Notes: generated from the sequence alone by a model not told the origin. Positions 36,168 to 44,078 are shown, numbered from the stretch's first letter. The stretch is DNA of 64,000 bases from Methanobrevibacter sp. TLL-48-HuF1 (GCF_023617305.1 NZ_CP081485.1:1540501-1604500), one strand, 5' to 3'. Made by a program: numbers and translations.

Positions 36168-36668
36168 ATGGAAATTTATTTTGTTTTAGATGCATCTGCT
36201 TTTATCAATGGTTTTGACTTGGAATCAGATAATAATTATACTGCTCCGGAGATTACTCAGGAAGTTAAAGATTTTGAGTCAAAATTAACATTGGATATGG
36301 CTATTAGAGATGGAAAATTAATTATTCGGGATGTTGATGAAAAATATATTGATGAGGTTAATGAAATTATATCAGAATCTGGTGATGTTCTACGTTTGTC
36401 TGCTCCAGATAAAAAATTAATAGCTTTAGCTTTAATGCTTAAAGACGAAGGTAAAAACATTAAAGTTATAAGTGATGATTACACTATACAGAATACTTTA
36501 AAAATTATTAATATTCCTTATTCCGGAATCCTAACTGAAGGGATTAAAGGTGTTTACAATTGGAAAAAGATTTGTGAAGGTTGTAAAAAAGAATTTGATG
36601 AGAATTATCCTTTTGATGATTGTGATGTTTGTGGGTCTAGAATATTTAAAAAAAGAATAAAATTATAA
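36168..36668 (+). CDS. nob1: Nob1-type endonuclease (PIN domain plus zinc ribbon)
   Basis: Nob1 trims the 3' end of 16S rRNA during small-subunit maturation. The 166-aa protein has an N-terminal PIN nuclease domain with the acidic residues YFVLDASAFINGF at residue 4, ALALMLKDE near residue 90 and VISDDYTIQN near residue 101. A C-terminal zinc ribbon follows (CEGCKKEF near residue 138, CDVCGSRIF near residue 154). This order and length match archaeal Nob1. The start ATG 36168 lacks a clear ribosome binding site and lies about 30 bases after AATATTTATTA, so a leaderless message is possible. It heads the strand-matched run that continues into DUF2117 and the marker genes. Confidence 0.88.
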   Translation: MEIYFVLDASAFINGFDLESDNNYTAPEITQEVKDFESKLTLDMAIRDGKLIIRDVDEKYIDEVNEIISESGDVLRLSAPDKKLIALALMLKDEGKNIKVISDDYTIQNTLKIINIPYSGILTEGIKGVYNWKKICEGCKKEFDENYPFDDCDVCGSRIFKKRIKL

Positions 36669-36679
36669 TTGGTGTTTTT

Positions 36680-37813
36680 ATGAAAATTGGTGTAGTAGTT
36701 CATGGACCTAATATTATTGATTCGAATTGGGCTTTAAAGTTAATTGATTTATTGTCTGGATATGGTGAGGTTTCAGCTAGATTAGGTGGAACTATGGGAA
36801 GAACTGCAGTTATTGACAAGTCTTTAGAAGATATCATTGACATATCTAAAAAATTAGTTCCAAGTGACTCTTTAAAATTATTTAATGATGCAAATGCGGA
36901 TGTTATATTTTTAATAAACTATGGAAAATCCAGAGTGACAGGCCAGGTTTTTGGTTATAAAGTTTATAATCATTATTTATTAAAAGTAGCTGAAAATAAC
37001 ATTCCACTAATTCAAATTGAAAGGCCAGGTGAAATTGATGGCAGTATAATCTCTTGGAATGGAGATAATAATGCTTTAATCAAAGATCTGTCTCAAAAAT
37101 TAGATTTGAATATTGTTACTCCTGAAGAAATTTATAATAATCATTTTAAGCAGGATAAAATAGATGATGGTAAAATTCAAAGAATTGTGCATGGTGTTAG
37201 TCCTGATGAGAATATAATGGTTAACAGTATGGTCATTGGTAAATCTAAGAGTGATAAAGTTACATTAATAGCTAAAGATGGTTATATTACAGATATTATT
37301 GGTGGAACTATAAAAGAGCATGGTGTTGAAAAATTAGGAAAAGTTGATTTGGAAAATGCTATTGTAAAAACGGGGCTTTTAAGAAAGTCTAAAGTAAAAC
37401 CCAGAGTTGTAGAAAAAAACAAATCAGCAGATATTTTTAAAATAGCTTTTTTAGACCATGCTGGAGAAGATGTTTATCAATTTAAAGATGCTGATTTGGT
37501 TGTTACGGTTGGAGATGATACTACATTAATAGCTTCTGATATTTTGTACAGATTTAATATTCCAATTATTGGCATTACTGATGGGGATTTGGATAAAGTT
37601 GTTGAAGATGGTTTCAAAGCTAAAAATTCCATAATATTTGAATTTGAAAGTGGAACTGATGATATTGTCGGTGAAAAAATACATGAATTGATTTTTAAAA
37701 ATGAAAAGATTTTAATCAGGCCTAGAAACTCTAAAAATATTGATGAAATTCATGGTGAAATCATTAAAATAACAAATCTTTTAAATTGTAAATATAATAT
37801 TATAACTATCTAA
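36680..37813 (+). CDS. DUF2117-family protein
   Basis: The 377-aa protein opens KIGVVVHGPNIIDSNWALKL and contains ARLGGTMGRTAVID near residue 35 and LIQIERPGEIDGSIISWN-like text near residue 112. I recognise it as the archaeal DUF2117 family, restricted mainly to methanogens. A second domain from about residue 250 has VTVGDDTTLIASDIL. No catalytic motif is obvious. GGTG, five T, ATG gives a textbook start. It lies 11 bases after nob1 and about 7-25 before marker 2, so it is transcribed with the methanogenesis marker cluster and may share its role. Confidence 0.65.
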   Translation: MKIGVVVHGPNIIDSNWALKLIDLLSGYGEVSARLGGTMGRTAVIDKSLEDIIDISKKLVPSDSLKLFNDANADVIFLINYGKSRVTGQVFGYKVYNHYLLKVAENNIPLIQIERPGEIDGSIISWNGDNNALIKDLSQKLDLNIVTPEEIYNNHFKQDKIDDGKIQRIVHGVSPDENIMVNSMVIGKSKSDKVTLIAKDGYITDIIGGTIKEHGVEKLGKVDLENAIVKTGLLRKSKVKPRVVEKNKSADIFKIAFLDHAGEDVYQFKDADLVVTVGDDTTLIASDILYRFNIPIIGITDGDLDKVVEDGFKAKNSIIFEFESGTDDIVGEKIHELIFKNEKILIRPRNSKNIDEIHGEIIKITNLLNCKYNIITI

Positions 37814-37837
37814 AAAAGAATGAGGGAAGGTGTTTTT

Positions 37838-38824
37838 ATTTCAGATTTTAAAAACCTTGTAAAGGCAATTCAGGAATTTGAAGGAGTAACTCGTAAAGCT
37901 TCTATTGATACTGTAACATCTCTTTTAACTGAATCTTATAATGTTTCAGGTGATGTTGTAATTGATATTGGTGATGATGCTTCAGCTATTGATATTGGAA
38001 ATAATCAAGTAGTTTTAGTAGCTGCAGATGGTATATGGGGTCAAATAATGAATGTTAACCCATATTGGGCAGGTTATTGTTCTGTTCTTGTTAATGTAAA
38101 TGATATTGCAGCTATGGGTGGAAAACCATTGGCTATGGTTAATATAATGTCAATAAAACATGATGAAATTTATGAAGAATTATTGGCAGGTATTAAAGAT
38201 GGTTGTTTGAAGTTTGGTGTACCTATGGTTGGAGGTCATCTACATCCTGATGGTGAAGTTGATTCTTTGGGAGTAGCTATTGTGGGAATTGCAAAGAAAG
38301 ATAAATTAATCACTAGTTTTGGGGCAGAAGTAGGTGATAAAATCATTGTTGCTATTGATTTAGATGGTAAACCTCATGAAATGTTTGCACTAAATTGGGA
38401 TACTACATATGATAAGGACAAACAATTAGTTCAAGATCAAATTACAGCAGTTCAATATTTAGCTGAAAAAGATTATATTAAATCTGGAAAAGATATCAGT
38501 AACCCTGGTATTTTAGGAACTTTGGAAATGTTACTTGAAACATCTGTTAAAGGAGCAATAGTAAATTTAATGGATATTCCAAGAAATAAAAATATTGAAT
38601 GGGAAAATTGGTTAAAATCATATCCTGGTTCTGGTTTTGTATTTACTGCTGATGAGGAAAATTGTGATTTTATTAAAGAGTATTTGAAGGATTATTCTAT
38701 TGAAGCTAATGTTGTTGGCGAAATTACTGGTGACTGTTCCTTGTATTTAGTTAATGGTGATGGTGAAAAATTGGAAGTTTTTAATCAAAAAACAAATCCA
38801 GTTTTCAAGTTTAAAAAAGAGTAA
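37838..38824 (+). CDS. mmp2: methanogenesis marker protein 2 (AIR synthase/selenophosphate synthetase-like)
   Basis: This protein belongs to the AIR-synthase-related superfamily of ATP-using enzymes and is one of the marker proteins found in essentially all methanogens. Signatures are IDIGDDASAIDIG near residue 45, VNVNDIAAMGGKPLAMVNI near residue 87 and GVPMVGGHLHPDG near residue 127 (conserved ATP-site residues). Homologues, as I recall, begin close to FKNLVKAIQEFEGVTRK. AAGGTG then five T puts ATT at 37838 in the start position. It is the same leader as DUF2117 upstream except that ATG there is ATT here. The alternative start is ATG 37820, in frame but without a ribosome binding site. Its exact reaction is unknown. 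Confidence 0.88.
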   Translation: MSDFKNLVKAIQEFEGVTRKASIDTVTSLLTESYNVSGDVVIDIGDDASAIDIGNNQVVLVAADGIWGQIMNVNPYWAGYCSVLVNVNDIAAMGGKPLAMVNIMSIKHDEIYEELLAGIKDGCLKFGVPMVGGHLHPDGEVDSLGVAIVGIAKKDKLITSFGAEVGDKIIVAIDLDGKPHEMFALNWDTTYDKDKQLVQDQITAVQYLAEKDYIKSGKDISNPGILGTLEMLLETSVKGAIVNLMDIPRNKNIEWENWLKSYPGSGFVFTADEENCDFIKEYLKDYSIEANVVGEITGDCSLYLVNGDGEKLEVFNQKTNPVFKFKKE

Positions 38825-38883
38825 TTATTTTTATAAGCTTTAAAATTTATATATTAATTAAAAAATTCTTTTTGGGAGATTAT

Positions 38884-40425
38884 ATGTTAATAAAAATTAA
38901 TGGAAAAGAAATGAATGTGGCAGAAGGTTCTACAATTCAGGATGTTATTGATGAATCTAATGCTCCATACACTCCCGGCAGTATTATCTGTTTAATTAAG
39001 GGTAAAAAAGAGCTTGAAAAAAATGTTAGCAAGTTTAGAATTAAAACAACACAAGGATCTGTTATTTTAGAACTTCTTGATACTAAAGAAGCACAGCCTT
39101 TAGTTGATGTCTGGAAAAAACAGTATAAAGATTTTGAAAACTTATCTGTTAGATGGTCAACTTCAAATGAAGTAGCTATTGGTCCTGTTGTCACTGATTT
39201 GAAACCTACTTCTGATGAATATAAATATTATGAGGGGGATGTTGTTTTAAGTTTATCTAGTTTTAGTAATGAGTCAACACATTTAATTCTTATTAAGGAA
39301 AACACCACTAATGTTTACAGTGTTCCTCCATTTAATAAAGGAATATTTGCAAAGGTAATTGGTGGTAAAAAAACTTTAAACTTACTAACAGATGATGATG
39401 AAGTAAAAGCTATTGAGCCTATTATTGAAAGAAGTACAACTACAGATTCATCTGCTGTATCTGATTTAGACACTGTTTTAAAAGAGGGCAATGAATTATT
39501 TACTTATGTTTCACTGGAAGTGGATAATAATTCTCCAGTTTCTGTTGAGCATCTGTTTTCAATTATTAAAGACGGCAGAATTAAAGTTGATTTTGAATCA
39601 GAATCATTTTTAGGATTTTATGATTTGAAAGGGATAGATAAACCTAAAGAAAATGTTGCTTCCAGAACAAGAGGAAGCATAACTGTTAGAAACAGTGGTG
39701 TAGGTGTTGGAAAATTATATATTTATAGGGAAAGTAGAGTTTTAAGTCCAAATCACACCAATGTAGGTAAAATCATAAATGGTATGGAAATTATTGATAT
39801 AGCTAAAAAAGGAGAGTTTATAACTGTTAAATCTAATCAGGATAGACTGATGTTACTTGGTCATAATCAAAATGAAATTGATGAAAAATTAGCTAGTTTA
39901 AATATTGAACATGTTAAAGAGGGAGTGACTGGGGAAGATGCTTTAATTGTAGAGCAAACTCCAAAATACACGATTGATATTTTAAATGAAGGAAAAGTAA
40001 CAACCAAATCCATTCATAAAGATGATTTATGTGAAATTGACTTTACTGAAAATGCTTCAAGAACTGTAAAATACTTTAAATTAGTGTCAGGTCTTTTAGA
40101 AGAGCCAATTGGTAAAATTAAAGTTCATTTTTCAGTACCTGGGATGCATATATTAATATTTGAAGGAGATTCAAATATTTCAAAAGGACTTGTTCCAGAA
40201 AATACTCCTGAAAATATTGTAAAAGCATGTGAAATTGGTGTAACTAATATGTCTGCAAAAAATGTTGGTTTAATTGGAGTAAGATTTGAAGATAATAAGG
40301 AATTTGGGCCAACTGCAGAATCATTTAGTTCAACTAACATTGTTGGTAATGTTGTTTCTGATTATTCCAAACTTGAAAAATTTAAAGATGGAGAGATAGT
40401 TTATGTTAAGGAATTTAACGATTAG
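38884..40425 (+). CDS. mmp3: methanogenesis marker protein 3
   Basis: The 513-aa protein is the marker 3 family (UPF0288). It begins with a ubiquitin-like segment, [20 protein letters not shown]. Two related central regions follow, and a cyclophilin-like part contains [20 protein letters not shown] near residue 262. Marker 3 has been found in the ATP-driven activation complex of methyl-coenzyme M reductase, as I recall the structural literature. ATG 38884 follows TTGGGAGATTAT; the TTG at 38872 would overlap that ribosome binding site. Its last 23 bases overlap the marker 6 gene, so translation is coupled. Confidence 0.87.
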
Positions 40426-40879
40426 TCCTGAATTGGATAAAGAAGATTGGGATCCTGATGTAATTACTCGTATGATTATAATTGCTCCTGGAGCTCATGT
40501 TAGTGAAAGTGAAATTGTTAATGAGTTACATATGCTTGATTTACCTCTTACAATAAAAAATACCTGTTATGGTTCTATGGTAAGTGGAAAAACAAAGGAT
40601 GTTTTTGAAGCGATTCGTGAAATAAGAAAATTGGATCCGAATCACATTTTCACAAAAGAGAGAGGTTTTGCTCCTGGGGATCCTAGAAGATGCAGGGGCC
40701 ACAGATTTGGACCAAGGGAAGGTTTCCACCAGATGGAAAATGAATACAGATTGCTTGGTGATGTGGCAGATGCTTTGGAAAATCCTCGTGATGTAAAAGT
40801 TGCGGTTGAAAAACCAATTGATGTTGATGAATTTAAAAAAATTATGAATGAATGTTTAGAAAATAATAATGATAGGTGA
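40403..40879 (+). CDS. mmp6: methanogenesis marker protein 6
   Basis: The 158-aa protein is recognised by [20 protein letters not shown] near residue 20, [10 protein letters not shown] near residue 52 and [20 protein letters not shown] near residue 85, all typical of the marker 6 family. No enzyme is assigned to it. The arginine/glycine-rich centre suggests binding to a phosphate or to a protein partner. It overlaps marker 3 by 23 bases and precedes marker 5 by six, deep within the marker operon. Confidence 0.87.
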
Positions 40880-40885
40880 AAAAAC

Positions 40886-41329
40886 ATGGTGAAAGTAGCT
40901 ATTTATCCTCCAAATTCATTAATCTTAGCAGATTTAATTGAAAGGAAAGGTCACACTCCTTTAGTTCTTCAAAAACAAATAAGACAAAAAATTAAAGATC
41001 CTGAAATTGATTCTCCTCCTATGAATATTACTGAAGAAGACCCAATTAAAGGTCTTAAATATGCAGCTATTGAAGTTCCTTCAGGTGTTCGTGGAAGAAT
41101 GTCTATTATAGGTCCTTTAATAGATGAAGCTGAAGCAGCTATTTTAGTTGATGGTGCTCCATTTGGTTTTGGTTGTGTAGGTTGCGCTAGAACAAATGAA
41201 CTGTCCATATTCCTGCTTAGGCAAAGGGATATTCCTATACTTGAAGTTACATATCCAAAAAATAGGGATGGGACATTTTTAATGGTAAATCAAATTAATG
41301 AGTTTTTAGACTCTCTTAAGGAGGAATAA
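40886..41329 (+). CDS. mmp5: methanogenesis marker protein 5
   Basis: The 147-aa product matches the marker 5 family: [20 protein letters not shown] at residue 2, [19 protein letters not shown] near residue 54 and [16 protein letters not shown] near residue 92. Two cysteines in GCVGC might bind metal or take part in redox, but the function is unknown. AGGTGAAAAAAC supplies the ribosome binding site overlapping the end of marker 6. The gene is two bases before the marker 15 start. Confidence 0.87.
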
Positions 41330-41331
41330 TA

Positions 41332-42573
41332 ATGGTTAAAATTGCTTTAGTTTCATGTGGAACTGAATATAGTGGAATTCAAAAGGAAATTGAAAAAGCA
41401 GCCAATACTTTTGGTGCAGAAATTATTCTTCCGGAAATTGATTTGGATTATATTGATGAATCTTATGCCAAATTTGGATTTTCTGCTCAAAGTTCAAGTT
41501 TAAAGTTAATGATTGCAAGAGCGATGGCAATTGTTGAAGGAAGATGTAAACCTGATGCAGTATTCATCGCTTCTTGTTTTAGATGTGCAGAAGGAGCTCT
41601 TGTAAGAAATGCAGTGCGTAAATTCCTGCAGGATAATACTCGTATTCCTGTAGTTACATATTCATTTACAGAAAGAACAAAAGCAGATGAATTATTTATT
41701 CGTATGGAAGCATTAGCTACTACTGTAACCCGTAGAAGTATTCTTGCTCGTGAAAAACAGGAAGGTCTTACATTAGGTATTGATTCTGGTTCAACAACTA
41801 CAAAAGTTGTAGCTATGGAAAATAATAAAGTTATAGGTACTGGCTGGACAGAAACAAAAGATATTATGGGTTCTGTTTATAAAGGTGTTGAAGAAGCTTT
41901 TGCTGATACTGAATATACAATTGATGATGTTGATGGAATTGGTACAACTGGTTATGGTCGTATTAATATTGGTAAACAATTAAATGCAGAATTAGTTCAG
42001 GAAGAGTTGTCTGTTAATGCAAAAGGTGCAGTATATTTAGCTGATCATCAAAAAGGGGAAGCTACTGTATTGGATATTGGGGGTATGGATAACAAAGTAA
42101 TCACTGTTAATGATGGTATTCCTGATAACTTTACTATGGGGGGAATCTGTGCAGGAGCATCTGGAAGATTTTTAGATATGGCTTCCCGTCGTTTAGATGT
42201 TTCTATTGAAGAATTAGGACCTCTTGCTTTACAAGGGGATTACAGAAAAGCATTACTTAACAGTTACTGTATTGTTTTCGGTATTCAGGATTTAGTTACT
42301 ACTCTTGCAGCAGGTGGTTCCAAAGCTGATGCTGCTGCCGCAACCTGTCATTCTGTAGCTGAACAAGTTTACGAACAGCAACTTCAGGAAATAGATTTAA
42401 GGGAACCTCTCATACAGGTAGGTGGAACATCATTAATTTCTGGACTTGTTGAAGCTGTTAGTGAAATGTTAGGTGGTATTGATGTTATTGTACCTCAATA
42501 TTCTCAACATATTGGAGCGGTAGGTGCTGCTCTTTTAGTATCTGGAATGGGTCATAGGCAAGATAATAAATAG
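41332..42573 (+). CDS. mmp15: methanogenesis marker protein 15 (BadF/HgdC-type ATPase)
   Basis: The 413-aa protein has an N-terminal half unique to marker 15 and a C-terminal ASKHA ATPase domain. That domain has [18 protein letters not shown] near residue 144, [10 protein letters not shown] near residue 246 and [16 protein letters not shown] near residue 266. It resembles activators of 2-hydroxyacyl-CoA dehydratases, which use ATP to push electrons to a low-potential site through a 4Fe-4S cluster between subunits. That analogy fits a role in raising the nickel cofactor of methyl-coenzyme M reductase to Ni(I), which is inference. Cys-rich [10 protein letters not shown] lies near residue 82. 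AAGGAGG precedes the start. Confidence 0.88.
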
Positions 42574-42588
42574 TCAAGAGTTGATTTG

Positions 42589-43149
42589 ATGTTAGTAGAA
42601 TGCTATGATGAAAAAGGCGCAGAAGTCTATGAAATGATTATTAAACAGATTTTTCAGGATTTGGTTCTTGGTCCTGCTGTTGAAGATTTAAAAGCTTTTG
42701 CTAACCCTGATGAAGCAGTTTTTATTTTAGCTATTAAAATGAAAAAGACTTCTGGTGTTATTAAATTTGGTGATGTGGCTAATTTCACTTATGATAAAAG
42801 CAATGATGTTACTAAAATATTTATTGAAAATGAAAATTATCTCCCAAATATTTTGAAGTTATTGTGGAGGAGATTTTCTAGAGATGAGCTTTATCAGCCG
42901 ACCAGGTATAATATTGATCTTGAAGGAAATCAAATGGATCTGGAAGATTTGGTTGTTGATGATCCTCATTCAAATCTTCAAAGAAGAATTTATGATGCAA
43001 TCTTTAGAATTTTGCCGGAAGGGTTTAAAATAATTAAAGATGTTTCTGTTGGGGATATTGTGGCTGTAATAGCTACTGATGAATTAATTAAAGATGATTG
43101 GATTGATAAAGCTAATGACTATATTGCAGAATTAAATAAAGGTTTATAG
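42589..43149 (+). CDS. mmp17: methanogenesis marker protein 17
   Basis: The 186-aa protein matches the marker 17 family, with YEMIIKQIFQDLVLGPAVED near residue 15, LKLLWRRFSRDELYQPTRYN near residue 87 and DDPHSNLQRRIYDAIFRILP near residue 120. Marker 17 has been reported, with markers 3 and 7 and McrC, in the activation complex of methyl-coenzyme M reductase. Markers 7 and McrC are not in this window. ATG 42589 is preferred over TTG 42586. It is the last marker gene before nifB, 62 bases away. Confidence 0.86.
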   Translation: MLVECYDEKGAEVYEMIIKQIFQDLVLGPAVEDLKAFANPDEAVFILAIKMKKTSGVIKFGDVANFTYDKSNDVTKIFIENENYLPNILKLLWRRFSRDELYQPTRYNIDLEGNQMDLEDLVVDDPHSNLQRRIYDAIFRILPEGFKIIKDVSVGDIVAVIATDELIKDDWIDKANDYIAELNKGL

Positions 43150-43211
43150 ATAACTTTATAATATAGTTCGATTATATACAAACATAATTACAAGTAGGGG
43201 AGTGATGTTAT

Positions 43212-44078
43212 ATGAATGAACATAATGGTTCTAGATTTGCACACATAACTAAAGCACATCCATGTTTTAATGAAAAAGTGCATGATAAAGTAGGTAGAGC
43301 TCATGTACCTGTAGCACCAAAATGTAATATTTATTGTAATTTCTGTACTAGGAATATAAATGATGAAGAAAATAGACCGGGGGTTACTAGCTGTATAATG
43401 AAACCAGATGATGCTATTAGTCATATTGATGATGTAACTGCAGAAGGACCAATTTCTGTAGTTGGTGTAGCTGGACCTGGAGATTCTCTGGCTAATGAGG
43501 AAACTTTTGAGTTTTTTGAAAAGCTAGGTAAAACTCATCCTGATTTAATAAAATGCATGAGTACTAATGGTCTTTTACTTCCTAAATATGCAGATAAATT
43601 GGCTGAACTTGGAGTAAATTCTGTTACTGTAACAATTAATGCAATTGATCCAGATATAGCAATGGATATTTACTCATTTATTAAATATGAAGGGAAAGTT
43701 TACAAAGGCTATGAAGCTGCTGAAATATTAATTAAAAATCAACTTGAAGGTGTTGAAAAAGCAGCTAAAAATGGCATGGTTGTTAAAGTTAATTCTGTTT
43801 TAATTCCAGGATTAAATGATGAACATATTGTTGAGATAGCTAAAGAAGTTAAAAAACGTGGAGCTTCTTTAATGAATGTTTTACCACTTATTCCATTAAA
43901 TAAAATGAAAATTTATAAACGTCCGGGATGTTCTATGATGGAAAAGGTTCGTGAAGAAGTTGAAGAAATTATTCCGGTATTTAGAGCATGTACCCAATGT
44001 AGGGCAGATGCTTATGGGATTCCTGGTAAAAAAAGTGAAGACCATCATTTAGGAATGACTCCTCAAAGTCATTACTAA
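43212..44078 (+). CDS. nifB: NifB, radical SAM Fe-S cluster (8Fe-9S-C) synthase, short archaeal form
   Basis: NifB fuses two 4Fe-4S clusters and inserts carbon and sulfur to make the 8Fe precursor of the nitrogenase cofactor. The 288-aa protein has the NifB-specific HPCFNEK at residues 16-22 (Cys18) and the radical SAM cysteines Cys38, Cys42 and Cys45 in PKCNIYCNFCTR. RPGVTSCIMKP near residue 56, GVAGPGDSLANEETF near residue 87 and the C-terminal ACTQCRADAYG near residue 262 are also NifB-like. The NifX-like C-terminal domain of bacterial NifB is absent, as in other methanogens. GGGAGTGAT precedes the ATG. No other nif gene is nearby. It directly follows six methanogenesis marker genes on the same strand. 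Confidence 0.88.
   Translation: MNEHNGSRFAHITKAHPCFNEKVHDKVGRAHVPVAPKCNIYCNFCTRNINDEENRPGVTSCIMKPDDAISHIDDVTAEGPISVVGVAGPGDSLANEETFEFFEKLGKTHPDLIKCMSTNGLLLPKYADKLAELGVNSVTVTINAIDPDIAMDIYSFIKYEGKVYKGYEAAEILIKNQLEGVEKAAKNGMVVKVNSVLIPGLNDEHIVEIAKEVKKRGASLMNVLPLIPLNKMKIYKRPGCSMMEKVREEVEEIIPVFRACTQCRADAYGIPGKKSEDHHLGMTPQSHY

Follow-up and report, generated by a model that had tools for sequence, protein, structure and literature searches.

Why would a methanogen without a nitrogenase keep nifB, and why beside genes for methanogenesis? This question is raised by a 64,000-nucleotide stretch of DNA (hereafter the window) from the 1.95-Mb single-contig genome of Methanobrevibacter sp. TLL-48-HuF1 (GCF_023617305.1, NZ_CP081485.1:1540501-1604500), in which nifB (43212-44078) follows mmp17 (42589-43149), the last of six methanogenesis marker protein (Mmp) genes, on the plus strand. 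We propose that NifB is, with high probability, a housekeeping enzyme of methanogenesis, which makes [8Fe-9S-C] clusters for the activation complex of methyl-coenzyme M reductase (MCR). The proposal as such is not new. A cryo-electron microscopy study published in 2025 states that NifB probably takes part in forming the clusters of this complex (PMC12176620), and alongside the proposal of such a cluster source, also in 2025, NifB was stated to be essential in methanogens without nitrogenase. New here are the order-wide gene-order evidence, the specific pairing of nifB with mmp17 and the signs of a separate control of nifB in the genus of the window. No statement on the mmp17-nifB linkage was found in the literature searched, which left out most subscription papers.

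NifB in a genome without nitrogenase

The 288-amino acid product of the window nifB lacks a C-terminal NifX domain. TIGR01290 is by far its best family (E=2e-92), although its 310 bits stay below the curated cut-off of 343.65; the model comprises 441 positions, of which 9-282 are matched, and its C-terminal part is not contained in the short form of the protein. The protein has the length of the stand-alone methanogen NifB proteins (PDB 7bi7, 7jma and 7jmb), with which it shares all conserved cysteines, and aligns without gaps and with 71% identity to the NifB of 7bi7/7jmb. The initial annotation had all cysteines kept, which holds for eight of the nine in 7bi7/7jmb, namely C38, C42 and C45 of the radical S-adenosylmethionine motif CX3CX2C and C18, C115, C240, C260 and C263. 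The ninth, C52, is replaced by glutamate in the window protein and is absent from Methanothrix NifB as well. Judged by its close solved homologues, the gene product is most likely NifB, the maker of the [8Fe-9S-C] cluster, here in a genome without a nitrogenase partner.

The single match to PF00148 (nitrogenase component 1) in the whole genome is CfbD, an enzyme of F430 synthesis (533 bits to TIGR03282), and NifB thus has no nitrogenase to serve. No NifD-, NifK-, NifE- or NifN-type protein besides CfbD was found in this PF00148 search, in which NifH was not searched separately; a NifH gene alone would not provide a nitrogenase, since the D, K, E and N components are missing. What had been noted for the 64 kb of the window, that no other nif gene is present, hence extends to the complete genome for NifDKEN-type proteins.

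One could argue that NifB is left over from nitrogen fixation or shared with it, an ancestral nitrogen fixer having lost nifHDKEN and nifB either lingering or serving a nitrogenase-like enzyme. Nitrogenase or nitrogenase-like genes do occur in some relatives, and the NifB of methanogens functions in making the nitrogenase cofactor (literature cited in PMC8809328). We regard this explanation as highly improbable, as the genome has no suitable partner protein, the published statements already call nifB essential in nitrogenase-free methanogens, and a useless nifB would not persist largely intact, with identities of 84-98%, in nearly all genomes of the genus that lack nitrogenase. In addition, the nitrogenase-like operons of genus g12 bring a nifB of their own. 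In three g12 genomes, G113 (L115, G113 C2, 7126-12173, on a separate 106-kb contig), G125 (L138, G125 C39) and G128 (L116, G128 C59), a D-K-H operon ends in a second nifB, while the first copy remains beside mmp17. The proteins of the G113 operon score below the curated NifD and NifH cut-offs. The second copies most likely arose by duplication within the genus, because in the tree they group with the nifB copies that g12 keeps at the markers. A second nifB in G129 was dropped as a candidate member of such an operon, as it has no operon next to it and the genome yields a single PF00148 match. D-K-H genes without nifB are also present in G010, G013 and G058, and a tandem nifB duplication was seen at L132 (G108 C75, 373-2193), where the first copy sits on a far longer branch of the tree.

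A comparable situation has been described for Methanocaldococcus sp. FS406-22, whose nifB is located away from the nif cluster, lacks the NrpR operator and has neighbours with no evident link to nitrogen fixation, so that a further function has been suspected (PMC8809328). As in the window, nifB is set apart from other nif genes in this strain; however, FS406-22 fixes nitrogen, whereas the organism studied here is without nitrogenase.

The MCR activation complex and the mmp17-nifB pair

The activation complex of Methanococcus maripaludis (PDB 8s7v, 8s7x, 9h1l) holds McrC, Mmp7, Mmp17, Mmp3 and ATPase A2 (AtwA), and a DUF2098 protein is also counted in its gene set. Its clusters are bound by McrC (H49, H118; C55, C12) and Mmp7 (H84, C143, perhaps C90), the last of the three lies at the Mmp7/Mmp17 interface, and for Mmp3 the study reports no ligand of a cluster (PMC12176620). 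The view that markers 3, 7 and 17 carry the clusters therefore fits Mmp7 and, at the interface, Mmp17, but not Mmp3, and McrC has to be added. McrC, Mmp7, Mmp17 and Mmp3 are all present in the genome of the window, and in alignments all published ligands of McrC and Mmp7, including C90, are kept. Mmp3 (38884-40425) is a homologue of chain J of the complex (8s7v_J, E=2e-92) and Mmp17 of chain G (8s7v_G, E=8e-20). mmp7 lies approximately 4 kb upstream of mcrC (G000 C1:1354600-1359787; L205, L207), and mcrC is surrounded by mcr genes. The McrC profile also matches Mmp7 weakly (26 bits); McrC and Mmp7, which both hold clusters, thus appear to be distantly related paralogues.

We propose that NifB would build the [8Fe-9S-C] core (NifB-co, L-cluster), which would end up in McrC and Mmp7; the complex, which contains these two proteins along with Mmp17, Mmp3 and ATPase A2, reduces the F430 nickel of MCR. 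The structural work on M. maripaludis contains no gene-order argument, whereas nifB adjoins mmp17 in the genome analysed here. To follow this linkage, mmp17, nifB and PF00148 matches were located in 151 Methanobacteriales genomes and their coordinates joined; distances were taken between matched stretches, and true gaps are somewhat shorter. Both genes were detected in 142 genomes, with 133 pairs on a common contig, and in 132 of the 142 nifB follows mmp17 on the same strand within 600 base pairs (bp), although the genomes are related and such counts overstate independence. Among the linked genomes, 96 have at most one PF00148 match and 16 have at least five; the linkage is thus kept in relatives with and without nitrogenase. 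NifB itself is present in 89 of the 90 high-quality genomes of the order, and the exception, G127, has a run of N at this place.

Stronger evidence than these counts comes from two rearrangements. In G151, which belongs to another order of the class, the genes PIN-DUF2117-mmp2-mmp3-mmp6-x121-mmp5-mmp15 are found at 1.03-1.04 Mb, and mmp17-nifB lies apart at 1.13 Mb, roughly 90 kb away from the other block genes, with a gap of 2 bp. In G014, mmp15 and mmp17 have been parted by several genes, but nifB is still the neighbour of mmp17, at a distance of approximately 430 bp. Both cases indicate that mmp17 and nifB act as a unit. The linkage is more than chance, and it is lineage-bound rather than universal. 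Some apparent exceptions were set aside: mmp17 and nifB are on different contigs in G008 and G039 (nifB at a contig end in both) and in G108 (nifB near an end), which may reflect assembly breaks, and the seeming joint loss of mmp15, mmp17 and nifB from G127, a single contig of 1,767,403 bp, as a natural knock-out proved to be an artefact caused by a run of N.

Arrangement of the block and control of nifB

Ahead of nifB, the window contains mmp2-mmp3-mmp6-mmp5-mmp15-mmp17 in head-to-tail order on the plus strand, and the NCBIfam calls (37820-43149), every one above its curated cut-off, agree with the marker order first assigned. The genes code for the AIR-synthase-like marker 2 (37820-38824, TIGR03267), marker 3 (TIGR03268), marker 6 (40403-40879, TIGR03272), marker 5 (40886-41329, TIGR03271), the HgdC-type activator ATPase marker 15 (41332-42573, TIGR03286) and marker 17 (TIGR03291). 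Spacings inside the block range from -23 to 59 bp, followed by 62 bp between mmp17 and nifB. The spacings of 2-60 bases given initially apply apart from mmp3 and mmp6, which overlap by 23 bp. The first gene then included in the marker block, at 36680-37813, is not a numbered marker and codes for a DUF2117 protein (PF09890, E=8e-131; no NCBIfam match). It is preceded by a gene for a PIN-domain protein of the PRK12496 family (36168-36668; PF17146, NF009145), which opens the conserved block and is found in the same place in other genera; both are on the plus strand. In deep lineages of the class, a gene for a DUF2111 protein is located between mmp6 and mmp5 (L106:6680-7048; likewise L105 and L109), which is missing from this position in the window.

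Of the block products, Mmp2, 5, 6 and 15 are missing from the list of proteins reported for the purified M. maripaludis complex (PMC12176620). Mmp15 has the PF01869 ATPase fold, and its residues C273 and C313 align with two activator cluster cysteines of 4eht. The suggestion that Mmp15 injects electrons into the complex thus has both HgdC-type cysteines in its favour, but the ATPase of the reported complex is A2. A role of Mmp15 as an ATP-driven electron donor is, at present, speculative.

The common strand and the short spacings could be taken to mean that the whole block is one operon with nifB as its last gene, as the arrangement had first been read. G151, G148 and G002, deep lineages in which nifB begins just 2-5 bp after mmp17, favour this reading. 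For these lineages, such short gaps make it likely that mmp17 and nifB share one transcript. For the block as a whole we consider a single operon somewhat unlikely. In genera g6-g10 the distance from mmp17 to nifB is larger, at several hundred bp, and the gap alignment of 21 genomes of the genus of the window, all close relatives, points to a separate promoter. A TATA-like box, TTTATATA or similar and preceded by purines, is conserved right after the mmp17 stop codon in the 21 genomes; in the window (gap 43150-43211) it is found at about 43155-43162, and a Shine-Dalgarno-like sequence, GGGGAGTGATG, is also present in the gap. nifB in this genus is therefore probably transcribed from its own promoter, and gene order alone is no proof of one transcript.

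Just downstream of the TATA-like box, most of the 21 genomes carry the sequence TTCGTAN4TACAAA, which resembles the binding site of MsvR (consensus TTCGTAN4TACGAA; PMC3729527). In 13 of the 21 genomes the box is a single mismatch away from this consensus, compared with a mean of 0.03 for shuffled sequences. The arrangement beside the nifB TATA-like box in these 13 genomes is like that of MsvR-controlled methanogen promoters with the box TTCGTAN4TAC(G/A)AA; the degenerate copy in the window, TTCGATTATATACAAA at 43167-43182, differs by three mismatches. No NrpR-type operator (GGAA-N6-TTCC) was seen when the gap alignment was inspected by eye. In several members of the genus, MsvR-type boxes also precede nrdD, where perfect copies occur (family search), and a deoC-like gene (by eye). 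It is possible, judging from these boxes, that the genes form a redox regulon that includes nifB. Further MsvR-type boxes were noted before the genes for two small conserved proteins, beginning with MFVATLDGIFKYSDLPEEYEP... and MKxLELTTxxAVxYLKENVKIHD..., respectively (all box loci: L193, L201, L208-L213, L215, L217-L223 and L227).

Published expression data bear on the same point. In M. ruminantium M1 treated with lauric acid, nifB was upregulated by 2.58 log2, together with deoC, nrdD, recJ1 and an F420H2 oxidase gene, and no marker of the block was listed as changed, in a list that omits 71 regulated hypothetical proteins. In genome G023, which may correspond to this strain, no MsvR-type box was found within the 400 bp scanned upstream of nifB. 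The M. ruminantium result hence supports a control of nifB apart from the markers, which again speaks against a single operon, but does not support the MsvR-type box. Taken together, mmp17-nifB would be an old unit of Methanobacteria, and both genes were probably co-transcribed at one time; in the genus of the window they are still adjacent, with nifB apparently under a promoter of its own.

Weighing the proposed role of NifB in methanogenesis

The initial annotation took gene order as an independent pointer to NifB as the cluster supplier. This is supported by the linkage, by the survival of the mmp17-nifB pair where the block splits, by the absence of a nitrogenase, by the conserved cluster ligands and by NifB tracking MCR in Halobacteriota, but the supplier proposal had already been published in 2025 and the linkage is bound to certain lineages. 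Several points weigh against NifB making clusters for MCR activation. The probable promoter of nifB would uncouple it from the markers in the genus of the window, and conserved order among relatives may be inertia. In genus g13 (G131-G135), mmp17 and nifB are separated, most clearly in G135, where both genes are contig-internal; this separation is derived, because the NifB tree nests g13 inside the family. Around nifB in 80 Halobacteriota loci, a single-sequence search of at most 10 kb of flank, which a very diverged Mmp17 could escape, detected none of the six markers. The linkage is thus not required for function. Furthermore, spectroscopic proof of the carbide in the clusters of the complex is still outstanding, and direct biochemical evidence is lacking throughout Methanobacteriales; we infer both that the NifB product reaches the complex in this organism and the route of its delivery.

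NifB nevertheless tracks MCR in Halobacteriota. Across 257 genomes, it was detected in 144 of the 153 with McrA and in 22 of the 104 without, counts that take no account of relatedness, nitrogenase or how complete the genomes are. The divergent NifB-like protein of Halobacteriota without detected McrA is found mostly in genomes of about 0.8-1.6 Mb (G164, G174, G184, G202, G217, G240 and others). In ANME-1/Argoarchaeum (L034, L040 and other loci), a gene for a flavodiiron-type protein is located upstream of nifB on the same strand, as is, in ANME-1, a gene for a small sirohaem-reductase-like protein.

These data also bear on a different explanation, in which NifB is needed for another Fe-S product or for general Fe-S supply and its place beside mmp17 is historical. 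The absence of the linkage in other phyla and its loss in g13, the expression of M. ruminantium nifB with redox-stress genes instead of markers, and the 22 Halobacteriota genomes with NifB-like proteins in which McrA was undetected would all fit. However, 15 of these 22 genomes have a divergent NifB only and the others may be incomplete, the 8Fe core is the one product that NifB is known to make, clusters of such topology are found in McrC and Mmp7, and it is specifically mmp17 that has been retained as partner. We therefore consider this explanation quite unlikely and favour a supply of the MCR activation complex.

Within the latter reading, one might speculate that Mmp17 is the dock that passes the finished 8Fe cluster from NifB to the Mmp7/McrC core, a role similar to that of NifX, NafY or NifEN for nitrogenase, and that in Methanobrevibacter nifB is also controlled together with redox-stress genes (such as nrdD and deoC) so that damaged clusters can be rebuilt. 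This idea is based on mmp17 alone staying with nifB when the block splits (G151, G014) and on the position of Mmp17 in the published structure, where it borders the Mmp7 cluster site that lies farthest out and close to the surface. As a whole, we judge it unlikely.

The order of the genes offers support for the proposed function that is independent of structure, and the pairing singles out Mmp17 as the candidate subunit for the hand-over of the cluster. If NifB does supply these clusters, its main task in nitrogenase-free methanogens would be the activation of MCR, and NifB would be a candidate inhibitor target in gut methanogens. The chemistry of the [8Fe-9S-C] cluster would then be part of how methane is formed in biology, and may be older than nitrogen fixation.

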